Source of the DNA: an uncultured Candidatus Saccharibacteria bacterium
GTDB lineage: Bacteria > Patescibacteria > Saccharimonadia > Saccharimonadales > UBA6022
Length of the DNA: 20,426 nucleotides
Direction of reading: 5' to 3'
NCBI GenBank assembly: GCA_946886725.1
Contig: CAMPJF010000003.1
Span: forward strand, 1 to 20,426
Each line of letters opens with the position of its first letter. Position 1 is the stretch's first letter. The notes under the pieces were generated by a model that was not told the DNA's origin, ran no database searches, and saw only the letters and a list, made by a program, of their open reading frames with translations. Below are positions 14,486-20,426 of this stretch, in pieces. The translations under genes and the position numbers were made by a program.

Positions 14486-15382
14486 TTAAATCTGTCCGCC
14501 GCCGTATAGCGTAGCTATCACCAAAACTAAGGAGGTTAAGCCCGCAGCCTTATACGCACCGTGATGGATATACCATGATTTCTTAAATGCCTTTGGCAGT
14601 TTATCGCGATATGCATGTGCGGCAAGCGCCACGATGGTCGCCACAATCAACAGCATGACCGACCCAAGCGCCGCCGGTGTCAGTGACTGTATCATCATTC
14701 CCAGTTGCGAGACAAACCCATGCGAGTCGACCGTAGCGAGTGTCGGTACTGTCGACACACCAGCAACCGTAGCGGGCGTCGCCTCGCTTGCATACATCGC
14801 AACCACCAGCGTCACTGGCTTACCTTCAAGCTCACCGCTAGCAACAGCAAAGCCAACCTGATCATAGTCATCACCCAGTACATTCGCGCGATGTTCAGCT
14901 GAATTCATCCATGCGTCCGTGACTGCACGTGCGGATCGAAAATTCTTTGCCAGATTTTCGCCAGCATGCGCGTAATTGTACCCAACATCAGCGAACCACT
15001 TCCATGGCTCGGTACCATCCGGTGCAGTGTGTGCCCAATATTGTTTATCTAACATGTGTCGCGCCTTCAAAAAGGCGGCTTCGTTAAGCTTTTCATTTGC
15101 CGCAAGTGGATCAAGATGACGCTCGGTGCGATATGTATTCATATCACTTAACAGGTCGACGCTACTAATTGATTCTTCTCGGCCTAATACCGATCCAGTC
15201 GTGCCGACATTATACCCTGCCTGTAATCCGACAACTAACAATAACAGGAATGCCAGTCCGTAGCGTCGCGTCGCGTGTGGTCGATATTGATTACCTTTAT
15301 GTGGAACAAGCGCCATTTTTAAATGACGATGCAGCTGCTTTTTTACCACAGTTATTTTTCGATTAGTTTTTTTTGTTTTCAT
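14486..15382 (-). CDS. Membrane-anchored CAP-domain (SCP/PR-1) protein
   Basis: CAP proteins are extracellular alpha-beta-alpha sandwich domains of varied function. This 298-aa protein has a very basic N-terminus with VPHKGNQYRPHATRR (26-40), a first membrane helix (about 42-58), the CAP domain (about 73-200; YWAHTAPDG with H118, HAGENLA with E142, SAEHRANVLG with H164) and two further helices (about 238-256 and 276-294). Three helices leave the CAP domain on the outer face. The usual metal-binding His and Glu residues are present. The ATG at 15382 has no Shine-Dalgarno and lies 8-13 bases after candidate -10 boxes. Downstream is the 38-bp palindrome. It may act in surface or host contact. 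Confidence 0.93.
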   Translation of the reverse strand: MKTKKTNRKITVVKKQLHRHLKMALVPHKGNQYRPHATRRYGLAFLLLLVVGLQAGYNVGTTGSVLGREESISSVDLLSDMNTYRTERHLDPLAANEKLNEAAFLKARHMLDKQYWAHTAPDGTEPWKWFADVGYNYAHAGENLAKNFRSARAVTDAWMNSAEHRANVLGDDYDQVGFAVASGELEGKPVTLVVAMYASEATPATVAGVSTVPTLATVDSHGFVSQLGMMIQSLTPAALGSVMLLIVATIVALAAHAYRDKLPKAFKKSWYIHHGAYKAAGLTSLVLVIATLYGGGQI

Positions 15383-15472: not shown

Positions 15473-18457
15473 TTACATATCTTGACTGCGACGTCGAGCA
15501 ACCGCATACCAGATAGAAGCAGCCGCTGCGACAAGCACCAACCACCAGTACCATGCAAGTCCAAATAAGCCACCAAGCGCGTTATCTGTATCAATCGCTG
15601 CAACCGTACTGTCGCGACTACCCTTTACGCTAGCATCGTCTGCGTTAGTTGACTGTGTACCTAAAACCGCCGTATCGTCAGCCGTTGCTGCGTCATCATT
15701 ACTACCCAGCTGGGCAAAAAAGATATTCGCTGGCGTCTGAAGATTAGCAAGTGGCAGTGCCGAGAAAGTGCTTCCCCTAGTCGACGTATTAGATGTTGTT
15801 GTGCCGCCAGTCTCCTCAGCTGCTGGAGGCGTATCTACTGGTGTCGGAAGGACACCTACAACTATAGGCTGGGGATTAGCTACAATTATATCTATCACCT
15901 TCGTAGATACCGCATCCTTATTGCCAGCTTGATCCTGAGCTTCGAACTGAACTGCGTATACTCCGTTAACGAGTTTGCTGACATTCCAGTCTAATCGATG
16001 CTCTCGGCTGCCATCGTTTTTAGCATCGGTCTTTTCATAGCCATTCGGGCCTTTAATCAAGAAATGCGTGTTCATCGGGTTTGCGTCATTCACGCCACCC
16101 ACCAGCTCGACATTTCCAGCAACTTCATCATTATTACTATGTGAACCCATAGACGCAATTGGTGCAGTTTTATCAACGGTAAAATAAAACTTTTCGGTAT
16201 TGGAAATATTACCCGCCGTATCTACAGCATTATATTTTACATAATACTTTCCGTCTGTAAGTTGGCTTAGATCGACGAAAAACGGACTCTTAGCAGATGA
16301 GCTACCCCTATAGAGAGTATCGTCTGCGTAATAAAGATTCCCCGTTACCGCCTTTACGGCCGTGTTATCGGTTGCGGCAATAGTAACCCCGTTGGGGTTG
16401 TAGCTATTTGCAGCGGGCGCTGCAATTGTCACCACTGGACGTTCGTTATCTAAAATAAAATCCGTGCTCACATGAGACATATTGCCAGCTTTGTCTTTAA
16501 CCGCCAGATGAGCTGTATACTCACCATCTGTAAGTCCTGCAAGATTTACATGTCCGAGCAAGCTATCGTCCGTGCCGGTAAGAGTTTCAGCGAATGCCGT
16601 TTTGAATAACATACCAAACGCCCAAGCTGTTTGACACTGCGGACCGCGAGTACCAACTTCCCGACCACCTACTTTTGTGACATAGCAGTAATAGTAATTA
16701 AAGTTATCGTCTAACGCAGTTCCATACAGGTTTAAGTTATTATTAGATGCTCGTACGCTGATGGGATTTGCGTAGGGATACAAATTTGCCGATGGAGTGG
16801 TTGCATCAATGCTGATATCGTACCCACTAGTCTTTGAATTACCCGCCCTATCATATGCAACTGCCCTTAGTGCATATCGACCATCCGTGAGCTCGCCGAC
16901 CTGGTAGTTAAAAGTGTCGTTAGTGACTGTTGCTAGCTTAAACTCAATTGCGCGACCGGCGAAACTACCATCCTGATTTAGCTTGTTAGCTACAATTTCT
17001 ACGCGATCGATGCCACTTATTGAATCACTGGCCGTGCCACTGATAGTAAACCCGCCACTCGCCAGCATACTGTCACGTATCGGACTTACGATAGATACGA
17101 CCGGTTTGCTATTGTCGATGATAAATTTACGAACAATCGTTCGATTGTTACCTGCCGCATCAGTCGTACCAACCTTCAGATAATAGTTTCCGTCTTCATA
17201 GGCGGTCGTACTGAATGTACAGGTAAAGCGGTGGTACGTACTACCCATAACTGGTCCTGCGGGGCGACACTGCTCTAATAGAGTGTCCTGCAATTCGCTG
17301 TTAGTTTTCGTCTTATAGAGATTAGCAACGGCTGTAGCACCATGACCAATATTATCGCTCATCTCGACATCAATAATTAGGTCATCTTTTATTGCTTGAC
17401 CTTCTTGTGGCGCATCAAAAACTATAACAGGACGAGTTGTGTCGGGAACGATAGGTAATATACTTTCGTACGCTGGCCAACTAGGGGCGCCATGCTGGAA
17501 TATCATGTTCGTCACTGCCTTAGGGCCGTTTTCGTCAGTAATAATGATTTTTACACTAACCGGCAACGTATCGTTAGTCCAATCGGCAGTAGATGCTGGA
17601 GCCCAATATGCCAAGTCCTGGTTTTCGTTGAATGTACCTGCCTGAATTATAAATGGTGCGGTTAATTGTGCGCCACTGTCATTATTATTGATAATATCAA
17701 GCACACCTTGATTGGCGTTTTTTGTAACAATGCTTTTATCGGCACGGGTTAATTGTACAGAAACGGCCGTCACAGTACCAAAGTACTTTGTATTAAAGCC
17801 TACGCTAATACCTTTAAAATTATCGTCGACCGTATTGAAGTTTTCAACGTCCACTTCGGAGGCTGGAGTGACAACAACTGGGGCTGCGCCGTTTGAAACA
17901 CCTCTACTCTGCATAGCGTCTGCAGACCAACTAGATGCCCCGTCCCAAATTCTTGATATAGTACGTGATGCGTTAGATTGAACAGACGCAACCCCATTGA
18001 CGCCGAGGAACTTATTACCATAATTCAATGTGTCCACTATAGACGACCCACTATAGAGAGTGATGATATCTCCGTCTTTGCTGAGATGGTTGTCGAAATC
18101 TACGACGACAAAGCCGCCAGCAGCAATTTCATTAGCGCTAAATTTACCAATCGTCTTAGCTGGATTCTCTAATTCTTTTACGCTGTATCCGACTAAGGAT
18201 ATTGCGACGTCAGTAGGATTATACAGCTCCACCCAGTCGTTATTGTTGGCAAAAGTGTCCGCTTCATTGATCACGATATGATCAGTTACTGTAGATGTTG
18301 CATTGGCAGTTATTGCGTTCGCAACGAACCCGTAAAGCGGCTGTGCCACCAGCACAAACGCCGCAATTAAAAGTGTTATTGTCTTTCCTTTTAACGCAAT
18401 GCGCTGCTGGATTTTTAGCCCCATAGTAGTAAACTCGCTTGTCTCCACACTCCACAT
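15473..18457 (-). CDS. Giant surface protein: lamin-tail domain, five Ig-like repeats, WYWWL membrane tail
   Basis: A 994-aa exported protein. A signal peptide spans about 12-48 (MGLKIQQRIALKGKTITLLI onward, ending VANA). A lamin-tail domain follows at about 57-180 (DHIVINEADTFANNNDWVEL). After a linker domain come five Ig-like repeats (about 340-860), each ending in a D/N-G-x-Y then D-x-A-G-N motif: DGNYYLKVGTTDAAGN (422), DGRYALRAVAYDRAGN (525), 644, 735 and a degenerate one at 831. A Pro/Thr/Ser and Ala/Asp-rich stalk (865-960) leads to LFGLAWYWWLVLVAAAA and a basic tail ARRR. It fits an adhesin projecting from the cell. The start is uncertain: ATG at 18457 or Met12 at 18424, which begins a cleaner signal peptide. 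The tail motif is shared with the upstream gene. Confidence 0.9.
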   Translation of the reverse strand: MWSVETSEFTTMGLKIQQRIALKGKTITLLIAAFVLVAQPLYGFVANAITANATSTVTDHIVINEADTFANNNDWVELYNPTDVAISLVGYSVKELENPAKTIGKFSANEIAAGGFVVVDFDNHLSKDGDIITLYSGSSIVDTLNYGNKFLGVNGVASVQSNASRTISRIWDGASSWSADAMQSRGVSNGAAPVVVTPASEVDVENFNTVDDNFKGISVGFNTKYFGTVTAVSVQLTRADKSIVTKNANQGVLDIINNNDSGAQLTAPFIIQAGTFNENQDLAYWAPASTADWTNDTLPVSVKIIITDENGPKAVTNMIFQHGAPSWPAYESILPIVPDTTRPVIVFDAPQEGQAIKDDLIIDVEMSDNIGHGATAVANLYKTKTNSELQDTLLEQCRPAGPVMGSTYHRFTCTFSTTAYEDGNYYLKVGTTDAAGNNRTIVRKFIIDNSKPVVSIVSPIRDSMLASGGFTISGTASDSISGIDRVEIVANKLNQDGSFAGRAIEFKLATVTNDTFNYQVGELTDGRYALRAVAYDRAGNSKTSGYDISIDATTPSANLYPYANPISVRASNNNLNLYGTALDDNFNYYYCYVTKVGGREVGTRGPQCQTAWAFGMLFKTAFAETLTGTDDSLLGHVNLAGLTDGEYTAHLAVKDKAGNMSHVSTDFILDNERPVVTIAAPAANSYNPNGVTIAATDNTAVKAVTGNLYYADDTLYRGSSSAKSPFFVDLSQLTDGKYYVKYNAVDTAGNISNTEKFYFTVDKTAPIASMGSHSNNDEVAGNVELVGGVNDANPMNTHFLIKGPNGYEKTDAKNDGSREHRLDWNVSKLVNGVYAVQFEAQDQAGNKDAVSTKVIDIIVANPQPIVVGVLPTPVDTPPAAEETGGTTTSNTSTRGSTFSALPLANLQTPANIFFAQLGSNDDAATADDTAVLGTQSTNADDASVKGSRDSTVAAIDTDNALGGLFGLAWYWWLVLVAAAASIWYAVARRRSQDM

Positions 18458-18476
18458 GTGGTGTTATTTTGTGATC

Positions 18477-18482
18477 ACTATA
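18477..18482 (-). promoter_or_regulatory. -10 box of the Ig-repeat protein gene
   Basis: TATAGT on the minus strand predicts a start near 18470, 13 bases before the ATG at 18457 or 46 before the one at 18424. It lies in the 37-bp gap after the small WYWWL gene, so the two may also be co-transcribed. Confidence 0.35.
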
Positions 18483-18494
18483 TCACACTGAGAG

Positions 18495-19082
18495 CTAGCT
18501 GACTATTACATTGTTAGACTTGCGACGAAGATTCCAGTATGTAAACTGCCTAGCTAAATAGTATCCAGCTGCCGGCAGTATCAGCCACCAATACCATGGC
18601 ACATTAAAAAGCTTCCAGCCATGATTGGAAGCTTGCAACATCGAAGATGTTTCGACGACGGCGGGATTAGTGACCGTTGGCGGAATCGCAGATTTGGCTA
18701 ATCGAGAAGATCTGATGTCATTTTCTTGCACAGCGTACGGATCGATCAACGAGAGTTCCTTTATCGGTTCGGTGACGACCATCGTGGTCCTATCAGCTAC
18801 TGCATTTGCTGGAGGTGGGACAAAATTATTCGACGACGGGTTAGTCGTTGAAGCGGCACGAGAATTGTCAGCAGAAGGACCGATCTTTTCCGCGCCATCA
18901 CTCACTACCCTATCCGCAGGCTGATTCAATTTCGTAATCGAGAGTACATTATCAATCACGGGGCCGACGGGTAATGCATAAGAAGGCACGGGAAGCATGG
19001 CTGAAATCAGCAAAGCCCATGACAAGACAGCCGCTCCGGATCGAACCGAAAGTAACGTCGCACTGCTACTGTATCGTTTCAT
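18495..19082 (-). CDS. Small secreted protein with WYWWL C-terminal membrane tail
   Basis: The start at 19082 (MKRYSSSATL) follows a GGGGGTG ribosome-binding site; the GTG at 19103 is rejected because it leaves no such site in front. An N-terminal signal peptide (about 1-36, ending PSYA) is followed by about 110 residues of low-complexity Asn/Ser/Pro/Ala sequence. The C-terminus WKLFNVPWYWWLILPAAGYY (WYWWL at 163-167) ends in a basic tail with LRRKS. It has no recognisable globular domain, so it is likely a spacer or short stalk protein on the surface. The tail matches that of the 994-aa neighbour just downstream. Confidence 0.85.
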   Translation of the reverse strand: MKRYSSSATLLSVRSGAAVLSWALLISAMLPVPSYALPVGPVIDNVLSITKLNQPADRVVSDGAEKIGPSADNSRAASTTNPSSNNFVPPPANAVADRTTMVVTEPIKELSLIDPYAVQENDIRSSRLAKSAIPPTVTNPAVVETSSMLQASNHGWKLFNVPWYWWLILPAAGYYLARQFTYWNLRRKSNNVIVS

Positions 19083-19129
19083 TTCACCCCCACTTTTTAC
19101 CACCGGAATCAGATGGCTCAGTACATTTA

Positions 19130-19242: not shown

Positions 19243-20121
19243 ATGGACATTCCCTCCTACACCCCCTACTTACAACAAGAGCGCCATCGTGCGGTAGAGT
19301 CCGTATTAACTTCGAGTGCCGAAACGCTGCAGATTCCAGAGGTTTCGCGGCAGCTTGGTCACTACGCCGCGATACTTACAAAGATCGTCGACCACGCCGT
19401 AATACCTAATATGCGCGATGGTGAGATCATCATGGACGGGCATAGCGCGAATAGCATACCCGTTATTGCGGTACGTATTGGTGAGCGAGTGCTGCGACGA
19501 TCACGGGACCTTGTGTTTAATCCCAGTCAAAAATATGCCATCAATCGACAATATAAATCCGGCATCGCACGCGACATCTTTAAATGCCAGGCACAGTCCT
19601 ACGAGAACGGCCCGGAGTTGCTCCAAGTAGCTCCCCTGAATACCAATTCGGTTCTTGCGCGCGTTCAGGTGAATACTCTGAAAAATGAAAACGGCGCATG
19701 GCCAATGCACCTATATAGTCGTCCACTCGTTCAGTTTAATTTAGATGCTGGTCGTATTTTCAGCCCCGTCGTTGCACTGCACGAGTTTACGCACGTCATG
19801 CAAATGAATCAAAGACCTATCGAGCGCGCCAACAAGAGCATGTTACCTAACGAGTTAGAAGCCTATCATGTGGCAGCCAGGATAGTCCGAGGCTACCAAG
19901 ACGCCGGCAAGCACGATGAGCTCGCCCGTCACACGCAACAAAACGATCAAGATATCGCCCTAGAAGTCGAAGCACTTCGCCATCAACACAATGGATCGAT
20001 TAGTGGCCAGCAGCCATTCAGCTCAAGCCCTGATCTGGTCGAAGATTTAGCGCTGAATAATTTAGCGATTACGACCGCGATTGAAAATCTAATGAACTCC
20101 CGATCCGAAGCTAGGGTTTAG
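19243..20121 (+). CDS. Putative zinc metalloprotease-like protein (HEFTH motif), 292 aa
   Basis: The sequence VALHEFTHVMQ (H180 to H184) is a classic HExxH zinc site; ELEAYHVA at about 204-211 could provide the third glutamate ligand, as in gluzincins. No signal peptide or membrane segment is visible, so it is probably cytoplasmic or secreted by another route. The N-terminal 160 residues show no known domain, with a helical start and a VRIGERVLRRSRDLVF strand/helix. The ATG at 19243 has a poor ribosome-binding site (AGAG). It converges on the 20111 gene, which is also a zincin, and the two overlap by 11 bp. The exact family and activity are not known. Confidence 0.75.
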   Translation: MDIPSYTPYLQQERHRAVESVLTSSAETLQIPEVSRQLGHYAAILTKIVDHAVIPNMRDGEIIMDGHSANSIPVIAVRIGERVLRRSRDLVFNPSQKYAINRQYKSGIARDIFKCQAQSYENGPELLQVAPLNTNSVLARVQVNTLKNENGAWPMHLYSRPLVQFNLDAGRIFSPVVALHEFTHVMQMNQRPIERANKSMLPNELEAYHVAARIVRGYQDAGKHDELARHTQQNDQDIALEVEALRHQHNGSISGQQPFSSSPDLVEDLALNNLAITTAIENLMNSRSEARV

Positions 20122-20426
20122 ATTCTAGCTTGTCGATATGTGAATGATTTAACCCGTAATAGTGCGCGATTTCGTGCCACAAGGTCCGTTTGACCTGTTC
20201 AAAAAGCTCGTCCTCGTTCTCAACGACAGCAAGAATAGAATTTTTAAACATAGTTATCTTATCTGGTAACATACCTGAAAATCCACTACCCCGCTGCGTC
20301 AGTGGAATGCCTTCGTATAATCCCAGCAAAACATGGTGAGGATCAATCTTCATCTTCTCCATTTGCTCGGGCGTCGGAGTATCAGCTTGAACGATCACAA
20401 CATTATCAAGACCTTTAATATACTCC
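20111..20426 (-). CDS. Partial CDS: Zincin_1-type (COG3824) metallopeptidase family protein
   Basis: The reading frame stays open to the window edge; the residues before the GTG at 20398 (EYIKGLDNVV) continue the family pattern, so the true start lies outside. The visible 105 residues contain LLGLYEGIPLTQRG and LPDKITMFKN, both hallmarks of this small zincin-like family, and VKRTLWHEIAHYYGLNHSHIDKL with the H-E-x-x-H site near the C-terminus. Full length in relatives is about 115-130. These proteins are cytoplasmic and their substrate is unknown. It ends inside the last codons of the convergent 19243 gene. Confidence 0.88.
   Translation of the reverse strand, partial: EYIKGLDNVVIVQADTPTPEQMEKMKIDPHHVLLGLYEGIPLTQRGSGFSGMLPDKITMFKNSILAVVENEDELFEQVKRTLWHEIAHYYGLNHSHIDKLESKP

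Follow-up and report, generated by a model that had tools for sequence, protein, structure and literature searches.

A conserved WYWW tail on otherwise dissimilar surface proteins of Saccharibacteria: a probable C-terminal membrane anchor

Introduction

Why would two adjacent genes whose products look unrelated end in the same short aromatic motif? The question is raised by a stretch of 20,426 nucleotides from an uncultured Candidatus Saccharibacteria bacterium (GenBank assembly GCA_946886725.1, contig CAMPJF010000003.1), hereafter the window, in which a 994-aa protein with immunoglobulin-like (Ig) repeats and a 195-aa protein, here called the S protein, both end with LF-x3-WYWWL followed first by a hydrophobic stretch and then by a basic end. 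Saccharibacteria that have been cultivated live on the surfaces of other bacteria, and how they display proteins for host contact is, to our knowledge, little understood. A first-pass annotation of the window had proposed that the tail common to these tandem proteins is a lineage-specific anchor or a sorting signal, and both open reading frames (ORFs) and both tails are present as it described. From sequence comparison and structural models we consider it probable (roughly 60%) that the tail is an uncleaved, lineage-specific C-terminal transmembrane anchor whose near-invariant aromatic block lies at the outer face of the membrane and perhaps docks a shared partner.

Two adjoining genes and their tails

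The two genes share a strand, and the S gene ends 37 bp upstream of the Ig gene. The features on which the argument turns are the following.

15473..18457, minus strand: Ig-type surface protein, 994 aa (ORF; relatives at loci L001-L007), with a hydrophobic N-terminus (putative signal peptide, by eye), a borderline lamin-tail domain, bacterial Ig-like repeats and the WYWW tail
15476..15574, minus strand: C-terminal tail of the Ig protein (GGLFGLAWYWW...RRRSQDM), of a kind found class-wide by profile A3
15542..15553, minus strand: WYWW core of the Ig protein; motif start at nt 15553, 22 residues after the core
18495..19082, minus strand: S protein, 195 aa (ORF from the ATG at 19082), with a hydrophobic N-terminus (putative signal peptide, by eye), a low-complexity linker and the WYWW tail
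18498..18620, minus strand: C-terminal tail of the S protein (GWKLFNVPWYWW...), with distant relatives in alignment A4
18585..18596, minus strand: WYWW core of the S protein; motif start at nt 18596, 29 residues after the core

The Ig protein ends in GGLFGLAWYWWLVLVAAAASIWYAVARRRSQDM and the S protein in GWKLFNVPWYWWLILPAAGYYLARQFTYWNLRRKSNNVIVS, where a P immediately precedes WYWW. An alternative GTG start at 19103 would give an S protein of 202 aa. W[YFW]W is found in none of the other window stop-to-stop frames of at least 60 aa. The Ig protein matches Big_13 (3e-22) and Big_7 (4.9e-16) in Pfam, and its lamin-tail match (LTD, 33.7 bits) falls below the cut-off of 34.3. No Pfam or NCBIfam C-terminal model matched its tail, the matches being confined to the body as far as the best stretches show, and no family of either database matched the S protein (NCBIfam up to E 10). 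Protein searches returned a single near-identical copy of the S protein (P0001, 97%), only the window's own protein and P0003 for the Ig tail region, and four proteins, the known copy among them, for the S alignment (only the best 7994 candidates were scored).

The bodies of the two proteins were said to be unrelated, and within the window they look so. The claim weakens outside it, where an S-protein relative in the same position, L075 (385 aa), has Ig-like and PKD-like domains. The N-terminus of L075 is common to the short S protein of L078, whose body is only a linker; the short S protein may be a reduced form related to the Ig-type surface proteins. Several S proteins (L006, L007, L077, L078 and L079) have paired cysteines right after the hydrophobic N-terminus, which the window S protein lacks.

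Distribution of the tail across Saccharibacteria

Scanning genome contigs with the 994-aa protein returned seven loci, five of them titled Candidatus Saccharibacteria, with 23-45% identity over the best segment. All seven Ig-type relatives have WYWW at their ends, 22-30 residues before the C-terminus, in a set that leans to tail-bearers since FGLAWYWW was one of the six patterns used. At L006 and L007 an additional S-type protein with its own WYWW lies upstream. The WYWW DNA pattern occurs at 23 sites in 7 genomes; nine mark the C-terminal motif of an Ig or S gene, and 14 fall in open frames no longer than 94 aa.

We then took a class sample of 294 genomes, from the class of G002 (GW2011_GWC2_44_17). 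Profile A2 matched 101 of them at E up to 1, many matches being weak or in short frames, and profile A3 matched 46 at E up to 0.001. Readable C-terminal tails are present in 39 of the 46, with W[YF]WW in 28 and near variants in 11 (WYWL in 3, WFLW in 2, WWWL in 5 and WLWW in 1); G042 (WLWW) and G123 (WYWW) are included. Outside the 39 are G043 (internal, near an ORF start, L216), G194 (internal, L084), G132 (stop within the match), G079, G206 and G244 (frames of 22, 31 and 80 aa) and G250 (core, then unread bases). Second tails in G144 (L080, DWLWF) and G067 (a cutinase), G028 (L225), and W-rich lookalikes in G522 and G325 (L149, L150) were not counted as carriers. Six of the 39 have both an S and an Ig type, and a seventh genome, G048, combines an S-type tail with a beta-helix/Ig protein ending NWWWL. 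Among 286 genomes taken phylum-wide, E fell below 1e-10 in only four, all within the class sample; the weaker matches that were inspected include W-rich lookalikes and short frames. Judged by sequence, the tail is old and lineage-specific.

Position in the protein is similarly restricted. Closed frames of at least 100 aa in the fetched loci contain 42 distinct W[YF]WW sites, of which 39 lie 15-30 residues from the end, before a predicted helix and usually a basic end; 21-30 residues follow the core in 37, and 15 and 19 in two. These positions and the phylum search support the proposal of a lineage-specific anchor. The three sites that are not simply C-terminal are an overlapping frame in G064, an N-terminal helix at L089 and G250 with its unread bases. 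The first-pass annotation would have been undone by a motif scattered through internal helices or confined to two recent duplicates; overall we found neither, L089 being the one internal helix.

In the 845,464-base contig of G064, W[YFW]WW occurs in two of 831 ORFs (at least 100 aa, after overlapping frames were filtered out), namely adjoining S and Ig genes, which argues against a general sorting tag. The 1672 unfiltered frames add one internal site, in a frame overlapping a 329-aa ORF. The composition of the 831 ORFs predicts 0.03 such motifs anywhere and 0.003 near C-termini, a naive figure that ignores the aromatic richness of membrane helices, and two were observed, both C-terminal and adjacent. 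Extended over 294 genomes, the same naive expectation is about one C-terminal case.

Conservation of the aromatic block

Alignment A3 holds 42 tails (47 listed, minus L051, L053, L073, L080, L085 and L086, plus P0003), and columns were counted over the 38 rows with W[YF][WL][WL] after four WWWL rows were dropped. The core is W in 38, Y in 36 (F in 2), W in 37 and W in 35, with G at position -3 in 36 (N in 2), W at -7 in 27 and A at -1 in 23. The remaining helix columns are less conserved than the core, and arginine increases at +18 to +23. S tails have a longer common lead, roughly PLxPSxxGWxxFG.

Could this be an ordinary stop-transfer helix with an aromatic belt, whose likeness between proteins reflects common descent and hydrophobic bias and which has no specific function? 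Aromatic residues are common at membrane interfaces, AWYWW sits at the likely outer end of an N-terminal helix at L089, and chance alone would place nearly one such tail near a C-terminus in 294 genomes. Convergence could account for the cutinase tail of G067 in the same way. Such a helix does not explain, however, why four aromatics and the G at -3 are near-invariant while the rest of the helix drifts, nor why the other candidate membrane tails of G064 lack the block, and we regard this explanation as distinctly improbable.

The G067 protein itself is a 783-aa cutinase-PKD protein (L223:9368-11719) located away from the usual locus. It is an esterase, looks membrane-anchored and ends EIAWYWW without the G at -3.

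The likeness of the two tails might also stem from recent duplication or gene conversion. We rejected this because an S and an Ig tail drawn from one genome resemble each other no more closely than two from different genomes (identity 0.359 versus 0.364; permutation p 0.64, 8 pairs). The same comparison bears on a pairing motif, through which S and Ig proteins would bind each other by their tails. The window genes, adjoining on one strand, and the six genomes with both types are consistent with pairing, but partners within a genome are matched no better than random pairs, and 33 of the 39 carrier genomes (32 without G048) have a single carrier type at profile level and still keep the motif or a near variant. 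We consider a pairing motif of this kind very unlikely, though a tail may pair with its own kind. In G167 the S and Ig genes sit on different contigs.

Processing enzymes and known sorting systems

The first-pass annotation had further suggested that a processing enzyme reads the tail, and many substrates and a co-occurring transpeptidase or protease would then be expected. We searched 54 genomes as a panel, of which 34 have the tail and 20 have no profile A3 match; the 34 comprise 32 of the 39 carriers (seven are absent), G006 from outside the class sample, and G250. Rhomboid proteases were detected in none of the 54, with 14/14 controls positive, and exosortase (PF09721) gave no match over the cut-off in any of them, with two weak matches below it in G007 and G078. 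Sortase (PF04203) is present in 54/54, and an Rce1-like protease in 53/54 with exactly one match in 42, the sole miss being a tail-negative genome. None of the four families separates carriers from non-carriers, and carriers usually number just one or two proteins per genome. A sorting tag recognized by a processing enzyme is thus not supported.

In a more specific version, the cut is made near FG-x-A/WYWW by an intramembrane protease or transpeptidase, which then hands the protein on to the surface. In its favor are the tripartite look of motif, helix and arginines, the small residue before the core (the A at -1), and the near-universal Rce1/CAAX-type protease, which belongs to the family of myxosortase (PMC11980579). 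Against it, neither a rhomboid nor an exosortase over the cut-off was found in the panel, sortase and the Rce1-like protease persist in 20/20 and 19/20 of the tail-negative genomes, no carrier-specific protease gene was seen next door in the loci examined, the carriers are few, and the window S protein has a P directly before WYWW. Cleavage at the tail is therefore unlikely in our judgment.

The tail also differs from each known system that it resembles. It shares with LPXTG proteins a hydrophobic N-terminus, a C-terminal motif, a helix and a basic end, in genomes that do encode sortases. However, LPxTG occurs in 0/42 A3 tails (two rows match a looser pattern, APTSG, before the core), the conserved WYWW residues lie inside the hydrophobic segment and not ahead of it, and motif and enzyme do not come and go together, sortase being present in tail-negatives too. 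The same genomes have other proteins with LAPNTG, LPRTG or LPVTG tails, two of these, LPRTG and LPVTG, on the 845-kb contig. PEP-CTERM proteins likewise have a C-terminal homology region on otherwise unlike proteins, but PEP occurs in 0/42 tails and their exosortase was not found over the cut-off. PEP-CTERM species often have twenty or more carriers (PMC3237569), against the one or two WYWW carriers usual here.

GlyGly-CTERM/rhombosortase offers a similar tripartite outline, and single-target systems are known (PMC3237569); no rhomboid was found in the panel, and the WYWW tails have no conserved glycine-rich motif before the helix. MYXO-CTERM tails share the basic end and a CAAX-type protease family member, whereas their invariant cysteine has no counterpart (cysteine occurs in only 4/42 WYWW tails), their carriers number dozens (PMC11980579) against the usual one or two here, and the presence of the Rce1-like protease does not track the WYWW tail. 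By description only, the VARTIG Ig module of Thermococcales (PMC8416519) resembles the window in placing a large Ig protein beside smaller proteins that share its C-terminal end, with a putative C-terminal sorting motif. That module is archaeal, its motif is a different one (DNNxxxGG, often after a hydrophobic region), and it is hypervariable by recombination. Our literature searches found no paper joining Saccharibacteria with C-terminal sorting signals or with Ig-like surface proteins, and none joining Patescibacteria with C-terminal transmembrane Ig-like adhesins. Texts containing the letters WYWW were found, none of them about a bacterial anchor by title among the matches listed. In a study of transposon genetics in a Saccharibacterium (PMC10633639), the single passage that matched was not relevant.

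Predicted structure and the anchor model

AlphaFold places residues 164-192 of the S protein in a helix (predicted local distance difference test, pLDDT, 88, 94 and 84 for the blocks), preceded by a two-residue strand pair (157-158 with 161-162), and residues 27-63 of the last 64 of the Ig protein in one continuous helix (blocks 69, 91 and 89). A beta-hairpin before the helix would suit the strand pair of the S model and a turn at the G or N at -3, whereas the Ig model is continuous helix. The carriers follow the general outline of a C-terminal transmembrane anchor, with a hydrophobic N-terminus (by eye), a single C-terminal predicted helix and a basic end, which L073 lacks.

The anchor that we propose would be constitutive and would work as follows. 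The putative signal peptide would export the protein, and the tail helix would halt transfer with the basic end remaining inside. In this topology the WYWW block would sit on the outside of the cell membrane, at its face, with 18-23 residues, or about one membrane thickness, between it and the basic end. The protein would remain uncleaved, and the near-invariant block could dock a shared membrane partner or hold the helix in place at the interface. On this view the locus would serve as a conserved mount for outward-facing domains that are exchanged, probably for contact with host cells or the surroundings.

Several points weigh against this model. A plain anchor needs no invariant WYWW, which leaves the conservation unexplained, and the docking partner is conjecture; we found no gene restricted to genomes with the tail, no full gene-presence profile having been made. 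The conservation itself is inflated, as patterns and profiles bearing the motif gathered the tails, and the 38-row count is partly circular in that the core pattern picked the rows and sets their register. Confidence in the whole AlphaFold models is low (mean pLDDT 54.3 for the S model and 67.9 for the Ig tail model). The AWYWW at L089 (1603-2664) stands in an unrelated 353-aa protein of G020, the L073/L220 frame (G285) stops 15 residues past the core with no basic cluster, and most class genomes, all but the 46 of 294 matched, lack the tail.

A bolder form would make the tail, as WYWW-CTERM, a tag dedicated to docking on, or sorting by, a Saccharibacteria membrane machine not yet described, and used to mount exchangeable host-contact domains at a single conserved locus beside a small zincin and genes of the cell envelope; this we offer tentatively and consider unlikely. 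If the aromatic block does dock a partner, it would point to a display system in genomes in which neither rhomboid nor exosortase was found (the 54-genome panel). A conserved mount with exchangeable outside parts would also make the tail profile A3 a search handle for host-contact proteins.

Exchangeable outside parts

The bodies behind W[YF]WW range from 184 to 1353 aa and differ in domain type: Ig repeats, lamin-tail plus Ig (L001), lamin-tail plus beta-helix (L218), beta-helix (L076), PKD-like domains and low-complexity linkers. Two scanned carriers, the L006 Ig-type protein and L070, gave no domain match. The zincin-like gene that usually lies upstream of the carriers is present in 141/294 class genomes, and we inspected 20 of its neighborhoods without a clear tail match, three of which (G132, G043 and G244) gave weak profile A3 matches. 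In three of the 20 there is an Ig-domain protein whose membrane end is a different one (L201, L202 and L205; Big_13 each). By eye, six of the others pass straight to a CAP-like gene and four to galU or rplU, one has a pilin-like protein, one an LPXTG-like (LARTG) protein, and five are otherwise different. As three relatives have an Ig protein with a different membrane end at the same locus and others have no such protein there, the tail behaves as a replaceable anchor.

A VLG motif ([AVIEG][VIA]LG) lies 14-78 residues ahead of WYWW in many carriers, including the group of the window Ig protein. It occurs within 90 residues in 27/50 distinct tails (one match only inside the tail), and it also precedes a different membrane end in G064 (a 445-aa ORF).

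Gene order at the locus

Two non-carrier neighbors flank the pair in the window.

14486..15382, minus strand: CAP-domain protein (PF00188, 8.8e-19), a non-carrier with a hydrophobic C-terminal part, ending GGGQI; usual downstream neighbor
20111..20425, minus strand: zincin-like metallopeptidase (PF06262, 1.8e-26), truncated by the window edge; usual upstream neighbor

The order is largely kept between genomes: zincin-like metallopeptidase, S and/or Ig protein, CAP protein, then genes that by their sequence we take to be galU-like, rplU, parA and parB, and a signal peptidase and a LytR-type protein. Only the window zincin, CAP, LytR and signal-peptidase genes had their names checked by Pfam. 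The zincin-like gene holds the same position at most loci examined and was not seen in L003. A similar CAP protein lies downstream of the Ig gene in L001-L007 (by eye), and the extreme C-terminus of this neighbor is GG[QS][IL] in the window and in L001-L007. Between the zincin and S genes, the window has a plus-strand gene (19243-20121) for a 292-aa protein with a zinc-protease-like HEFTH sequence, which had no Pfam match and was not seen there in the comparison loci. Several genomes have a gene for an Rce1/CAAX-type protease some 14-25 kb away from the tail or zincin locus, whether the tail is present or not.

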